This document shows positions 58,049-64,000 of a stretch of 64,000 nucleotides of DNA, one piece after another. The DNA comes from Desulfovibrio piger (GTDB lineage Bacteria > Desulfobacterota > Desulfovibrionia > Desulfovibrionales > Desulfovibrionaceae). The first letter of the stretch is position 1. Every line of letters begins with the position of its first letter. Location of the stretch: positions 1 through 64,000 of the forward strand of contig NZ_JABAFY010000008.1 in assembly GCF_012843875.1 (NCBI RefSeq), given 5' to 3'. The position numbers and the translations under genes were made by a program. The notes below the pieces were generated by a model. That model had not been told where the DNA came from and searched no databases. It saw nothing but the letters and a program-made list of their open reading frames with translations.

Positions 58049-58171
58049 TTACGGGCATCGACAGCAACGCGCGACCGAAAGGCGGCCGAAGGCCGTGCCC
58101 GTTGGCGACGGATGGAGCCTTACGGGCATCGACAGCAACGCGCGACCGAAAGGCGGCCGAAGGCCGTGCCC
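58049..58171. repeat. two 52-bp direct repeats, 71-bp period
   Basis: The units 58049-58100 and 58120-58171 are identical (TTACGGGCATCGACAGCAAC ... GGCCGTGCCC). They contain a small hairpin (GGCGGCC GAA GGCC). A related sequence lies in the loop of hairpin-repeat copy 5 (20395-20460, opposite strand). Confidence 0.8.
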
Positions 58172-58177
58172 CGTTTT

Positions 58178-59602
58178 TTACAGATAGGGCGAGAACAGCC
58201 AGCAGGCGGCGTCACGCAGTTTGAGGATCAAAAGGCGTTCCTGCAGGTCTTTCAGGGTCACTTCGCGGCTGCGGGCGATGGTCATGTCCATGTGCAGGGC
58301 CATGGCGGTATGGAACTCGGGATCGAAGATCTCCATGTTCAGCTCAAAGTTCAGGCGCATGCTGCGGGCGTCCAGGTTGGCGGAACCGATCTGGCAGTAA
58401 TAGCCGTCCACGGCCAGCAGTTTGGTGTGGGCAAAGGGCGGCGGCTGGAACCACACGCGCACGCCCGCTTCCAGCAGGACGGGCAGCAGGCGGAAGCTGG
58501 CCCAGTGGACGAAGGGCAGGTTGTTCTTGCCGGGCAGCACCACACGCACGCTGACCCCGCGCTGGGCGGCGCTGCGCAGCGCGGCGATGAGCTCGTGCGA
58601 CGGCAGGAAATAGGGCGTCATGATGCGCACCGTATGCTGGGCGCTGCCGATGACCCCGCAATACAGGTCATTGAGCGGATCGGCCTCGGTGCCGGGGCCG
58701 TCCAGGACCATGCGGCACAGGCTGTCCCCGGACATGATGTTGCTGCTGGGCAGCAGGCTGCGCTGGTCGAATTTGCCGGTGGCAAAACCCCAGTCCAGCA
58801 AAAAGGCCCGGCGCAGCTGGTCCACGATGGGACCTTCGCAGCGGAAGTGCAGGTCCTGCACACAGCCGGGATGCTTGCTGAGGATGTGGTTGTCCGCGAT
58901 GTTCATGCCGCCGGTAAAGGCCGTATCATCGCAGATGAGCAGCTTGCGGTGGTTGCGCAGGTTCAGGCTGAGGCTGGGCGGGAAAAGGCGGGGCGGCAAA
59001 AAGCTGGCCAGCTGGCCGCCGGCCTGGGGGATGCGCTTCCAGGGTTTGCGCAGGGAATAGACGGCGCCGCCGAAGCCGTCCACCAGCAGGCGCACGTCCA
59101 CGCCGCGCCGGGCGGCATGGCACAGGGCCTCGGTGAAGCTCTCGCCCACGCTGCCGCCGCGGAAGATGTAGGTGGAGAGGAAGACCTGCTTGCTGGCCCG
59201 GTTGATGGCGTGCAGCATGGCCGGGTAGGCTTCGTTGCCGTTGCGCAGGGGCAGGATGCCGTTGCCGCTGCACAGGGTCTGGCCCGTCAGGCGGCGCCCC
59301 AGGATCTCTAGGGGCCATTCCTGCGGCGGCGCGATGGCCGTCCGGTGGCAGACGACTTCGGGATGGTGGGCGTAATCAGGTTCGATGGCGGCCATCTTGC
59401 GCATAAGGCGGGCCGCCAGGCTTTCGGCACGGCTGATGCCGAACAGGCAGTACAGCACGATGCCGACGCCGGGCAAAAAAAGGACCGTCACGATCCAGCC
59501 CAGCGCCGAGCGCGGATCGCGCTTGTGGAGCAGGGCATGGCAGACGGCCCCCCAGGACAGAAGGTGCGCTGCCACAAGGCCTAAAGTTCCCAGTGTCAGC
59601 AC
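58178..59602 (-). CDS. cls: cardiolipin synthase (phospholipase D family)
   Basis: A 474-residue protein with two N-terminal membrane segments (~5-25, 33-55) and two HKD motifs: H218-x-K220-x4-D225 (HRKLLICDD) followed by GGMNIAD, and H392-x-K394-x4-D399 (HTKLLAVDG) followed by GSANLD. It joins two phosphatidylglycerol molecules to make cardiolipin at the inner membrane. Translation appears to start at GTG 59602, ten bases after the stop of the upstream UspA gene, without a clear ribosome site, so coupling to that gene is likely. The length is normal for the family. Confidence 0.93.
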   Translation of the reverse strand: MLTLGTLGLVAAHLLSWGAVCHALLHKRDPRSALGWIVTVLFLPGVGIVLYCLFGISRAESLAARLMRKMAAIEPDYAHHPEVVCHRTAIAPPQEWPLEILGRRLTGQTLCSGNGILPLRNGNEAYPAMLHAINRASKQVFLSTYIFRGGSVGESFTEALCHAARRGVDVRLLVDGFGGAVYSLRKPWKRIPQAGGQLASFLPPRLFPPSLSLNLRNHRKLLICDDTAFTGGMNIADNHILSKHPGCVQDLHFRCEGPIVDQLRRAFLLDWGFATGKFDQRSLLPSSNIMSGDSLCRMVLDGPGTEADPLNDLYCGVIGSAQHTVRIMTPYFLPSHELIAALRSAAQRGVSVRVVLPGKNNLPFVHWASFRLLPVLLEAGVRVWFQPPPFAHTKLLAVDGYYCQIGSANLDARSMRLNFELNMEIFDPEFHTAMALHMDMTIARSREVTLKDLQERLLILKLRDAACWLFSPYL

Positions 59603-60622: not shown

Positions 60623-60779
60623 GTGGACTCCTTGCATAAAATAAGAGATGGCCCTTGTGGGCGTTGAAGATTTAGTCTGGCACGACTTGCTCCTTTGTGC
60701 AAGAGGGCCTGTCGCGGCCTCCGCGCCGGGGCCGGGAACGAAAAAGGGCCGGTCAGCAGGACCGGCCCCGGTATGCGTA

Positions 60780-63700
60780 TCAGGAGCCCATGGAGATGCG
60801 GTGGCGTTCCACCGCCGTGGCCAGCTCGGGCAGCAGGTCGGTCACGGCCTGCAGATCCTTGGCGCGTCCGGCGCTCTCCACACAGCGGGCCATGCGGCCC
60901 AGTACCCGGAAACCGTAGCTCTCGGCCTCGGCGGCCAGGCGTCCGGCGGCGTCGGCCACCAGATGCAGACGGCGCTGTTCCAGGGCATAACCGGCCTCCG
61001 CCAGATATTTGTCCATGCGCCACATGAGAGCGGGCAACGGATCCTCGGGGTCATCCGGCGGCTGGGGCCGCTGAGGCATGGGCGGCACGGGCATGCGCGG
61101 CGTGGGGGCCACGGGCCGGGACGCCGCGCGGCGTTCGATCCAGGGATTGGTCGTGGCGGGGATGTCCGCCGTGGTTCCCGGCGTCTCTTCCCGCGGAGCA
61201 TCCTTCCTGGGCATGGGGCGCGGTGTGCCCTGCCGTTCCTGCGCGGTCGCTGCCGGAGCCTGCGGGCTCCTGGCTTCTTCCTTATCTTGGGGCTGGCCGT
61301 TGCCCGTGTGGAAACGGGAAAGGAAGCGCATCAGGGTGTTGGCCGCAGCCCTGGTCCGGCTGGTCTCTTCCCGGCCGCTGGCAAGAAGGGTGGTGCTGTC
61401 CGGCGTCATGTCCGGCAGGCTGGAAACGTCCTTGCTGCCGGGCACGGCCTGGGGCGCCTCTTCCACAGGCGCGCCGGGGAAGGCAGGCTGCGTCCCGGCG
61501 CCCGGGCCGGTACTGCTGCTCTTGCGGGGCTGCGGCGTGATGAGGGCCGATTTGTCCGTGGGCACCAGACTGGGCTTGCCCAGCTTGCGGGCGATCTCGT
61601 TCGGGCTGACGTCCCGGCGCAGGGGGCGGACCGTGACGACGGTCTCCACCGGAGCGGATACCGTTTCCTCCTGCCGGGGGGCAGGACGGTCGACCGGAGT
61701 GCCGATGGGCATGGGCTCGCCGACCCATTCACCGGCATGGCGCAGGCTGGGGCTCACATAGCCACCGGCAAGGGGACTGGCGGCCGCCTCGACAGACGGG
61801 AAGGCAGGAGCCCTCGTGGCAGAGGCGGCCTGTGCATCGGCGACCGGAGCTTCCGTGCGCTCCTTTTCGTCGACCGTGGCTCCCGTCGCGTCATCGGCCG
61901 GGGCCGCAGCGGCAGCATCCGCCGTCTCCTGCTGGGGCAGGGGCTCTTCCCGCGTCATATCGGCCACCGGTGCGACGGGTCCTGCTTCCTTCACCGGGGC
62001 TTCCGGCATGGCAGCCTCGTTCGTTTCCGCCATTTCCGCCACCGGCACGGACGGGAAGTCCGGCGCCGCAGGTGCGGGGGCCGGGGCGACGTCTTCGGCC
62101 GCCTCGGGAGCGTTTTCGCTCTCCTGCACAGGGCTGTCCGCAGACGCGGCTTCCTCCGGCTGTACGGCATCGGACATCGGCGCTTCGGCAGCATCCGTAG
62201 GCGCGTCGCCGGTCTGTACGTCATCAGCGGGCAGGGCCTGTTCGGCCGCAGCCTCCCGGGCCGGAGCCGGGAACGCCGGAGCGCTCGGGGGCACCGCGGC
62301 GGCTTCGTCCTGTGCGGAGGGCGTCACGTCAGTGTCGGCCACCGTTTCCGCACCAGCTTCATCCGTGCTGTCCATTTCATCGGACAGGGTTTCAGCAGCG
62401 TCATCGGCCGGGGCCGCAGCGGCAGCATCCGCCGTCTCCTGCTGGGGCAGGGGCTCTTCCTGCGTCATATCGGCCGCCGGTGCGGCGGGTCCTTCTTCCT
62501 TCACCGGGGCTTCCGGCATGGCAGCCTCATTCGTTTCCGCCGTTTCCGGCATCGGTACGGACGGGAAGTCCGGCGCCGCAGGCGCGGGGGCCGGGGCGAC
62601 GTCTTCCGCCGCCTCGGGAGCGTTTTCGCTCTCCTGCACAGGGCTGTCCGCAGACGCGGCTTCCTCCGGCTGTACGGCATCGGACACCGGCGCTTCGGCA
62701 GCATCCGTAGACGCGTCGCCGGTCTGTACGTCATCAGCGGGCAGGGTCTGCTCGGCCGCAGCCTCCCGGGCCGGAGCCGGGAACGCCGGAGCGCTCGGGG
62801 GCACCGCGGCGGCTTCGTCCTGTGCGGAGGGCGTCACGTCAGTGTCGGCCACCGTTTCCGCACCCGCTTCATCCGTGCTGTCCATTTCATCGGACAGGGT
62901 TTCAGCAGCGTCATCGGCCGGGGCCGCAGCGGCAGCATCCGCCGTCTCCTGCTGGGGCAGGGGCTCTTCCTGCGTCATATCGGCCGCCGGTGCGGCGGGT
63001 CCTTCTTCCTTCACCGGGGCTTCCGGCATGGCAGCCTCATTCGTTTCCGCCGTTTCCGGCATCGGTACGGACGGGAAGTCCGGCGCCGCAGGCGCGGGGG
63101 CCGGGGCGACGTCTTCGACCGCCTCGGGAGCGTTTTCATTTTCCTGCACCGGGCTGTCCGTGGACGCGGCTTCCTCCGGCTGCACGGCATCGACCACAGG
63201 CCGGGCGGTCTGTGCTGCGGGCGTATCGAGGCGCATGTCGTCCGTCAGGGGAAGGGGCTCCGTCTGGGCCGTATCCGCTGCAGCGGCCGCCGGAGCGGCG
63301 AACAGGTCCGGCAGATCCGCGCTTGCCGCGGCAGGAGCGGCCGGGGCCGTCTGCTGCGGGATATCATCGGTGGACAGGAGCAGATCGGGCATGCCCTGGT
63401 CTGCCTGGGGGGCCGCGGCGGGGCCGAACAGGTCGGGCAGGGGGGCATCGGCCTGTCTGGTCTCGGGCAGGGGCGCACCCAGGTCGGCCACATCGTCATG
63501 GCTGCCCAGGATCTCGAGCACGGTCTCGCGCAGGGCGTCTTCCGAGACGGGCAGGGTCAGGGCATGGCTGAAACCGGCATGGGCCAGCGCATCCCACTGA
63601 CTCTGGTCGGGCGTCAGGGCCACGGCGCCGAAGGGGCCGGTCCTTTCGGCAAGGCTGTGGTAGCGGCGCAGCAGCGGCGCGGCGTCCACGGAAGCCTCGG

Positions 63701-64000
63701 GGCCGCAGACCAGCAGCACGGCAGCCGGTGTCCGGCCCTTGCGGGCCCCGGCTGCCAGACCGTGGGCCAGGGTGCCTGTCTCGTGGCAGGTGCAGGGCAG
63801 GTCGCGCAGCATGGCGCCCAGCTCGCGACGGGTGGCGGCATCGGGAGCGCAGACCAGGACCGTGGGCAGGTCCTCGCCGTCAGAAGCTTCCGGGAGATGC
63901 AGCTGCAGGGTGAAGATGACGGACGTGCCGCGGGGGCCGCTCTCCACGCCCAGAAAACCGCCGTGGGACGAAGAGAGTTCCCAGATACGGGCCAGGAGCG
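60780..64000 (-). CDS. hybrid sensor histidine kinase, C-terminal part (N-terminus beyond the window)
   Basis: The frame is open to the right edge; a GTG at 63947 is internal, because the preceding codons read as the end of a kinase ATPase domain (ARIWELSSSHGGFLGVESG, then PRGTSVIFTLQL). Next (63880-63500) is a receiver-like domain (TVLVCAPDAATRRELGAML) whose phospho-acceptor position reads LLVCGPEA and whose conserved lysine is replaced (LTLPVSED), so it is probably inactive. An Ala/Pro/Glu-rich region of ~600 residues follows, including 170-residue tandem repeats (61891-63180). The last ~85 residues look like an Hpt helical bundle with Asp/Ala where the phospho-histidine should be. Signalling role likely; output unknown. 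Confidence 0.75.
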   Translation of the reverse strand, partial: LLARIWELSSSHGGFLGVESGPRGTSVIFTLQLHLPEASDGEDLPTVLVCAPDAATRRELGAMLRDLPCTCHETGTLAHGLAAGARKGRTPAAVLLVCGPEASVDAAPLLRRYHSLAERTGPFGAVALTPDQSQWDALAHAGFSHALTLPVSEDALRETVLEILGSHDDVADLGAPLPETRQADAPLPDLFGPAAAPQADQGMPDLLLSTDDIPQQTAPAAPAAASADLPDLFAAPAAAAADTAQTEPLPLTDDMRLDTPAAQTARPVVDAVQPEEAASTDSPVQENENAPEAVEDVAPAPAPAAPDFPSVPMPETAETNEAAMPEAPVKEEGPAAPAADMTQEEPLPQQETADAAAAAPADDAAETLSDEMDSTDEAGAETVADTDVTPSAQDEAAAVPPSAPAFPAPAREAAAEQTLPADDVQTGDASTDAAEAPVSDAVQPEEAASADSPVQESENAPEAAEDVAPAPAPAAPDFPSVPMPETAETNEAAMPEAPVKEEGPAAPAADMTQEEPLPQQETADAAAAAPADDAAETLSDEMDSTDEAGAETVADTDVTPSAQDEAAAVPPSAPAFPAPAREAAAEQALPADDVQTGDAPTDAAEAPMSDAVQPEEAASADSPVQESENAPEAAEDVAPAPAPAAPDFPSVPVAEMAETNEAAMPEAPVKEAGPVAPVADMTREEPLPQQETADAAAAAPADDATGATVDEKERTEAPVADAQAASATRAPAFPSVEAAASPLAGGYVSPSLRHAGEWVGEPMPIGTPVDRPAPRQEETVSAPVETVVTVRPLRRDVSPNEIARKLGKPSLVPTDKSALITPQPRKSSSTGPGAGTQPAFPGAPVEEAPQAVPGSKDVSSLPDMTPDSTTLLASGREETSRTRAAANTLMRFLSRFHTGNGQPQDKEEARSPQAPAATAQERQGTPRPMPRKDAPREETPGTTADIPATTNPWIERRAASRPVAPTPRMPVPPMPQRPQPPDDPEDPLPALMWRMDKYLAEAGYALEQRRLHLVADAAGRLAAEAESYGFRVLGRMARCVESAGRAKDLQAVTDLLPELATAVERHRISMGS
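61891..63180. repeat. 510-bp tandem repeats inside the kinase gene
   Basis: The same sequence (TCATCGGCCGGGGCCGCAGC...) begins at 61891, 62401 and 62911, exactly 510 bp apart; the third copy is partial. Each full copy encodes 170 residues rich in Ala, Pro, Glu and Asp. Copies two and three are nearly identical; the first shows more differences. Confidence 0.88.

Follow-up and report, generated by a model that had tools for sequence, protein, structure and literature searches.

A 7TMR-DISM hybrid kinase-like protein of Desulfovibrio that appears to have lost its whole phosphorelay while staying a core gene

We analysed a stretch of 64,000 nucleotides from Desulfovibrio piger (NCBI RefSeq assembly GCF_012843875.1, contig NZ_JABAFY010000008.1, positions 1 to 64,000), referred to here as the window. 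At its far end lies part of a gene for a hybrid histidine kinase-like protein, which we call the pseudokinase. The genome is a draft of 133 contigs, and the contig carrying the gene (C112) has 79,768 bases. Reading-frame analysis placed the gene at contig positions 60780-65915 on the minus strand, with 1711 amino acids (aa), and it is truncated by the end of the window. The entire region of the dimerization and histidine phosphotransfer (DHp) and catalytic ATP-binding (CA) domains spans contig positions 63888-64529, and two of its key residues, Gln472 and Asp594, lie outside the window. The initial annotation, made from the window's letters, had seen only the end of the kinase; in the full frame, the core beyond the window proved to be dead as well. 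An antisense frame of 1563 aa (60648-63998 on the plus strand, running to 65339 in the contig) overlaps nearly the entire gene and is probably a by-product of the high GC content.

By its layout, the protein is a 7TMR-DISM hybrid histidine kinase. Pfam recognises the 7TMR-DISM_7TM sensor domain (30.7 bits, cut-off 29) and HATPase_c (27.7 bits, cut-off 26.4), and 7TMR-DISMED2 stays under its cut-off in the window protein (18.1 bits, cut-off 22) and is matched in 50 of 57 orthologs at E ≤ 1 (best 4.4e-12). When the whole window protein is searched, even a limit of E 10 brings up no match to HisKA, Response_reg or Hpt, and these parts are recognisable only through profiles of the protein's relatives. 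The 57 orthologs are the rows of a structure alignment taken from 74 genus proteins of at least 700 aa, from which 16 were left out as incomplete, lacking domains or badly aligned, together with the near-identical L077; 46 of the 57 rows were used in the receiver and kinase alignments (A3, A4). The kinase-region profile from these 46 matched the ShkA hybrid kinase (2.1e-17), RetS (1.6e-16) and DivL (1.8e-10) in the PDB. The receiver profile matched solved receivers weakly (best E 0.0011), and Response_reg was detected in 4 of the 57 members at E ≤ 1. Pfam Hpt was matched in 35 of 66 C-terminal domains at E ≤ 10 (best 2.2e-5), with the window's own domain at 0.013, below the cut-off.

According to the models, the folds are retained. 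An AlphaFold2 (AF2) model computed from the 57-ortholog alignment covers aa 60-806, with a mean predicted local distance difference test (pLDDT) of 81.8 and a predicted template modelling score (pTM) of 0.50. Compared with PDB structures, its CA domain resembles ETR1 (Z 20.3) as well as RetS and GacS (Z 18-19), and its receiver-like domain matches response regulators (Z ~16). A modelled receiver fold lacking the phospho-Asp places this domain among the pseudo-receivers (PsR). The 85-residue C-terminal domain was modelled as a four-helix bundle (pLDDT 93.9), and it is most similar to HptB of Pseudomonas aeruginosa (7c1i; root-mean-square deviation 1.1 over 85 of 85 residues) at Z 14.0, a value that helical bundles can reach by chance, unrelated bundles scoring Z 12-13 in the same list. 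In Foldseek, Hpt proteins come first, and the model predicts an Hpt fold for the bundle. The Hpt profile searched against PDB sequences gave no Hpt protein among its matches, and an hhalign comparison with one intact Hpt of the window genome gave no signal; that intact Hpt itself yielded weak CheA matches in the PDB search.

The residues on which a phosphorelay depends are gone from every one of these domains. In the kinase core, Gln472 occupies the position of the DHp His and Asp594 that of the N-box Asn. The receiver-like domain had been reported to lack both the phospho-acceptor Asp and the conserved Lys, and the aligned columns confirm this: Cys737 and Leu788 stand there, and the acidic pair is lost too (Ala690/Pro691). 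The final bundle indeed lacks the His, as annotated initially, though not by the proposed exchange to Asp-Ala. The alignment to 7c1i (residues 26..110), in which HptB His57 falls on residue 32 of the domain, puts Gly1658 at this position, one helical turn away from the Asp-Ala, which was therefore rejected. Ala1661 is found at the position of HptB Lys60; according to PMC7467158, which also gives Lys60 and Gly61, His57 is the active site of HptB. The loss extends through the genus. Among the Desulfovibrio rows, the DHp His is present in 0 of 70 (six of them gaps), the N-box Asn in 1 of 70, the receiver Asp in 0 of 73 (one a masked X), the receiver Lys in 1 of 73 and the Hpt His in 0 of 68. The Asp of the DxGxG box is retained in 63 of 70 rows. 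By these alignments, the window protein would not be a functional hybrid histidine kinase, which has the DHp His, the N-box Asn and the receiver Asp and Lys, and its bundle does not show the exposed helix-2 His with a Lys at +3 of an Hpt. The receiver-docking positions of the bundle are variable (mean entropy 2.21 versus 1.54 overall), while six residues in helices 3-4 are near-invariant (R44, R48, D61, D67, E77 and R78 in domain numbering), suggesting that the pseudo-Hpt bundle binds through a different contact face.

We found orthologs in 76 of 79 Desulfovibrio genomes, including all 55 of the 55 good ones, almost always as a single copy; 77 proteins were taken from these 76 genomes. The N-terminal part of the G053 ortholog is 95% identical to that of the window protein. 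Over 15 close pairs, the ratio of nonsynonymous to synonymous substitution rates (dN/dS) was 0.00-0.29 in the dead domains, with the exception of one receiver (0.65 at dS 0.05), and 0.22-0.58 in the linker; a few values were not computable because dS was saturated. Judged by these ratios, purifying selection acts on the dead domains. One 1118-bp stretch of the gene had no match to plasmids. The pseudokinase gene is a core gene of the genus and not a relic, and the alignments indicate that the whole phosphorelay was lost while the protein stayed a single-copy core gene.

Homologs outside the genus retain part of what is missing here. A profile of the sensor part detected homologs in 156 of 288 family genomes and 22 of 44 genera, and we retrieved 40 loci outside Desulfovibrio, the majority with the full architecture. 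In genus g34, both the DHp His and the N-box Asn survive in six of seven homologs, of which three have an intact receiver as well, and L198 from another family likewise retains the DHp His. Of 39 outside rows, 25 have the receiver Asp, among them rows from the dead-kinase genera g23, g31, g54 and g22. The Hpt His is missing even in g34; among 33 outside rows, L165 is the only one with a His at this position, and it lacks the Lys. These intact residues show that the relay was dismantled stepwise. On a tree, the genera fit vertically inherited groups with 17 changes for 18 groups (the minimum possible), and g34 splits first, with the root hanging on the single long-branched homolog L198 and carrying long-branch warnings. 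The simplest order of loss toward Desulfovibrio, as read from the sequences, would be Hpt first, kinase second and receiver last.

Two kinds of outside homologs deserve separate mention. L177, L178 and L179 of g34 combine intact kinase and receiver residues with an Hpt-like bundle lacking the His; in them, a living relay ends in a dead domain. The homolog L174 (genome G106) lies in a frame of 2962 aa that contains kinase and receiver-like parts and has no Hpt match.

The gene also persists in reduced genomes. G094 (1.41 Mb), G050 (1.6 Mb) and G009 (1.4 Mb) encode, at the Pfam level, one HisKA kinase each, 1, 1 and 0 receivers, respectively, and no Hpt, compared to 10 HisKA kinases, 15 receivers and 1 Hpt in the window genome; the kinase counts cover the HisKA class. 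All three retain the pseudokinase gene (1179, 734 and 1131 aa, respectively); in the G050 copy, the CA and receiver parts are lost, but the sensor, the bundle and a portion of the DHp remain. In two reduced genomes, the sole HisKA kinase detected (L200, 4151-5656, minus strand; L201, 3236-4744, plus strand) has the motif IASIAHEIRNPLG; its gene adjoins what we take to be a sugar-phosphate-isomerase-like gene in each case, and a presumably enolase-like gene lies nearby. PMC7608387 reports that Rs-N31 and ZnDsv-02, both termite-gut symbionts, lack many response regulator genes or carry them as pseudogenes.

The pseudo-receiver and the pseudo-Hpt bundle are joined by a low-complexity linker, which the initial annotation had put at about 600 residues; it measures 820 aa. 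Linkers of the genus range from 48 to 906 aa (median 495) and consist, when pooled, of 19% Ala, 14% Pro and 16% Asp+Glu. The linker set comprised 99 of 117 proteins, a receiver match and an Hpt match both being required. Within it, the motif WVG[ED]P occurs 101 times in 54 of 67 genus linkers, where shuffles predict none, and in 10 of 32 linkers from outside the genus. Just after the receiver, 42 of 67 genus linkers have a second motif, [VILPD]PD[LI]FG. In the motif table, for which 107 of 117 proteins were kept (truncated or X-containing ones were dropped), all 65 motif-bearers lack the DHp His and all seven His-bearers lack the motif, a pattern that follows few branches and is not a test. 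On the tree, the presence of the motif and that of the kinase domain give five independent pairs, too few for testing. The DNA pattern of EWVGEP, searched in 25 genomes, had 20 matches in genus genomes, 18 of them within the pseudokinase gene, judging by coordinates, while the remaining two come from a genome in which the gene is cut and lie on a different contig there; one further match was found in a genome of another family. In the window genome, the EWVGEP site is the sole match to its DNA pattern.

Part of the linker is repetitive. Tandem Repeats Finder reports a 510-bp period, 2.6 copies and a 96% match, so that the 510-bp spacing of the 170-residue repeats described initially as being in exact register holds; the sequences themselves are not exact, copies 1 and 2 being 97.3% identical over 510 nt and the identity of copy 3 amounting to 91-93% for its initial 300 nt, beyond which it diverges. 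The window genome is a 133-contig draft, which could raise the suspicion of an assembly artefact. We consider this highly improbable, since the complete, single-contig genome G081 of the same species has 2.5 copies with a period of 501; a collapse of the assembly was rejected for the same reason. Repeats of 2.6 × 510, 2.5 × 501 and 3.0 × 492 occur across species, and other lineages have different units. The proposal that the repeat number could vary by recombination is supported by the differences between species, but the two same-species genomes have practically equal numbers. In L114, from one Desulfovibrio, most of the six EWVGEP copies sit in a 41-aa unit that is repeated 5.3 times, so that repeat number and motif number increase together. 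The 170-aa units of the window protein do not contain EWVGEP, which is single in this protein.

The positions of all features are compiled in Table 1. Upstream of the pseudokinase gene and on its strand, 69 of 77 loci have a gene for a TPR protein with one transmembrane (TM) helix no more than 400 bp away; with a limit of 3 kb, the number is 71 (at least 1.5 kb of upstream sequence is available in 73 of the 77). Outside the genus, the TPR gene stands directly upstream (≤ 250 bp) in 26 of 40 loci, including all seven of g34. In NCBIfam, the TPR protein of the window genome weakly resembles NrfG, PilW and MamA, with scores far below the cut-off in every case. The N-terminal side of the TM helix is the more positive one in 52 of 69 proteins and equal or reversed in 17, with the window's own being equal; the TPR part is probably periplasmic and the linker probably cytoplasmic, as far as the sequences tell. 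Binding of EWVGEP to the neighbouring TPR domain was set aside as a candidate interaction, the two probably lying across the membrane from each other.

Downstream, the pseudokinase gene is followed by two tandem genes that we take to encode universal stress proteins (USP). They are 70-79% identical over parts and spaced by 585-588 bp, and a USP-like gene follows the pseudokinase gene in many loci. The next gene is presumably of the phospholipase D (PLD)/cardiolipin-synthase type. An exact 52-bp direct repeat (58049-58100 and 58120-58171, 71 bp from start to start) lies downstream of this PLD-like gene.

Table 1. Features of the pseudokinase gene and its neighbours (positions in the window unless stated otherwise)
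Feature	Position	Strand	Evidence or remark
C-terminal part (aa ~639-1711) of the 1711-aa pseudokinase gene	60780..64000	-	gene runs on to contig 65915
HATPase_c-like (CA) end	63888..64000	-	Pfam HATPase_c E 3.9e-6; profile vs PDB; fold Z 18-20
Pseudo-receiver, aa 681-806	63498..63875	-	profile vs PDB best E 0.0011; receiver fold Z ~16
Cys737 (phospho-Asp position)	63705-63707	-	aligned columns
Leu788 (receiver Lys position)	63552-63554	-	aligned columns
Low-complexity linker, 820 aa	61038..63497	-	
PLPDLFGP, conserved short motif just past the receiver	63420..63443	-	
Repeat copy 1, 170 aa	62682..63191	-	
Repeat copy 2, 170 aa	62172..62681	-	97.3% identical to copy 1
Repeat copy 3, partial, ~94 aa	61890..62171	-	
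EWVGEP short linear motif, aa 1396-1401	61713..61730	-	
Pseudo-Hpt four-helix bundle, aa 1627-1711	60783..61037	-	AF2 model, HptB fold match, Pfam Hpt in relatives
Gly1658 (phospho-His position of pseudo-Hpt)	60942-60944	-	structural alignment to HptB
One-TM TPR protein, 237 aa	contig 66076-66789, beyond the window	-	standing upstream neighbour
Downstream gene, 145 aa	60200..60637	-	
Tandem downstream gene, 141 aa	59612..60037	-	
Downstream gene	58178..59602	-	PLD-like counterpart in 50/77 loci, same strand

We lean towards the pseudokinase being a membrane sensor and scaffold free of phosphotransfer, whose output is binding and not phosphate. Such a role is favoured because the protein persists where hardly any kinase, receiver or Hpt is left. 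The suggestion made at the outset, that the relay had been turned into a scaffold or extended tether, fits the genus-wide loss of residues, the purifying selection, the private motif and the scarcity of partners; the scaffold role itself is what we infer. In such a protein, the periplasmic DISMED2-like domain, perhaps together with the TPR protein, would sense an envelope cue, which would travel through the 7TM bundle as a change in shape of the pseudo-DHp/CA/receiver block. Clients in the cytoplasm would then meet the EWVGEP and PDLFG peptides and the pseudo-Hpt bundle on the long flexible linker, contacts being made by surfaces different from the former receiver-docking face, and the output would be binding and recruitment without phosphate. 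A more specific version is also possible, and we put it forward tentatively: conversion to a scaffold may have proceeded domain by domain, with kinase, receiver and Hpt becoming binding modules and EWVGEP, on a repeat-expandable tether, setting the valency for a putative cytoplasmic receptor. Several observations weigh against the scaffold. No partner was found for the motif, the bundle or the sensor, and the motif and the TPR domain are probably on opposite sides of the membrane. The EWVGEP-type motif is absent in the reduced genomes and in several clades and is therefore not essential to the core function. With the DxGxG Asp retained, the protein may still bind ATP or another nucleotide, and the pTM of the AF2 model makes the modelled arrangement of the domains tentative.

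The main rival, which concerns the free-living species, is that the dead core acts in the manner of DivL or RetS: by binding a response regulator or a second histidine kinase, it would alter the phosphorylation of that pathway and thereby serve two-component signalling indirectly. Among solved structures, RetS, GacS, ShkA and DivL come closest to the kinase core, and the window genome has 10 HisKA kinases and 15 receivers. DivL is described as lacking kinase and phosphatase activity and binding DivK~P (PMC4211667), and RetS as attenuating GacS signalling (PMC5992135). However, the three reduced genomes keep the protein with a single HisKA kinase each and 1, 1 and 0 receivers, the G050 protein is kept without its CA and receiver-like domains, and a second 7TMR-DISM protein for pairing was not found in the genome. 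By analogy with the two known proteins, such a function is conceivable, but we regard it as rather unlikely. It is still less probable that the CA domain binds nucleotide and serves as an ATP/ADP gauge that switches the scaffold. HATPase_c scores above the Pfam cut-off and the DxGxG Asp stands in 63 of 70 genus rows, but the N-box Asn is left in only 1 of 70, no clear G2 box could be seen by eye in the alignment with RetS, and one clade of the genus (six proteins) is entirely without a CA domain. That the protein is a decaying relic without function, as the disappearance of every catalytic residue might suggest, is hardly credible in view of its retention in 55 of 55 good genomes of the genus, nearly always as a single copy, of the purifying selection and of the intact frame in reduced genomes that shed most signalling genes.

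Our literature search, with subscription papers mostly outside its reach, found no description of this protein. A sensor and scaffold of this kind would allow one to ask which roles hybrid kinases have beyond phosphate transfer and in which order a relay is dismantled, as neighbouring genera preserve several stages: a living kinase with a dead Hpt, a dead kinase with a living receiver, and all parts dead. RetS of P. aeruginosa resembles the window protein in its DHp-CA region (profile match E 1.6e-16) and, as we assume, in its layout of a 7TMR-DISM input and a hybrid kinase. It differs in that its DHp keeps the His (SHEIRTP in the alignment), whereas the window protein has lost every phosphotransfer residue. 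To our knowledge, RetS has no long linker or C-terminal bundle, and DivL of Caulobacter has no receiver, long linker or Hpt. DivL (profile E 1.8e-10) is similar as a kinase-dead histidine kinase kept for protein-protein signalling, but it has a PAS input, as stated in PMC4211667, and its partner DivK is known. The enterobacterial RcsD, a membrane hybrid-kinase-like protein with HATPase and Hpt parts, gives the best NCBIfam match of the window protein (E 2.7e-9), which at 35.5 bits against a cut-off of 634 is not an RcsD equivalog. The Hpt of RcsD has His842 as its active site, according to PMC7418988, in contrast to Gly1658 here. HptB provides the nearest fold for the C-terminal bundle, but its His57, Lys60 and Gly61 are Gly, Ala and Ala in the window protein, and the docking face is not conserved. 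Bacterial PsR share the receiver fold without Asp and Lys; PMC12632262 gives loss rates of 0.9% for the HisKA His, 0.9% for the Hpt His and 2.0% for the receiver Asp. Single dead two-component parts are thus known but rare, whereas here all phosphotransfer residues are lost in one chain, genus-wide, in a core gene.

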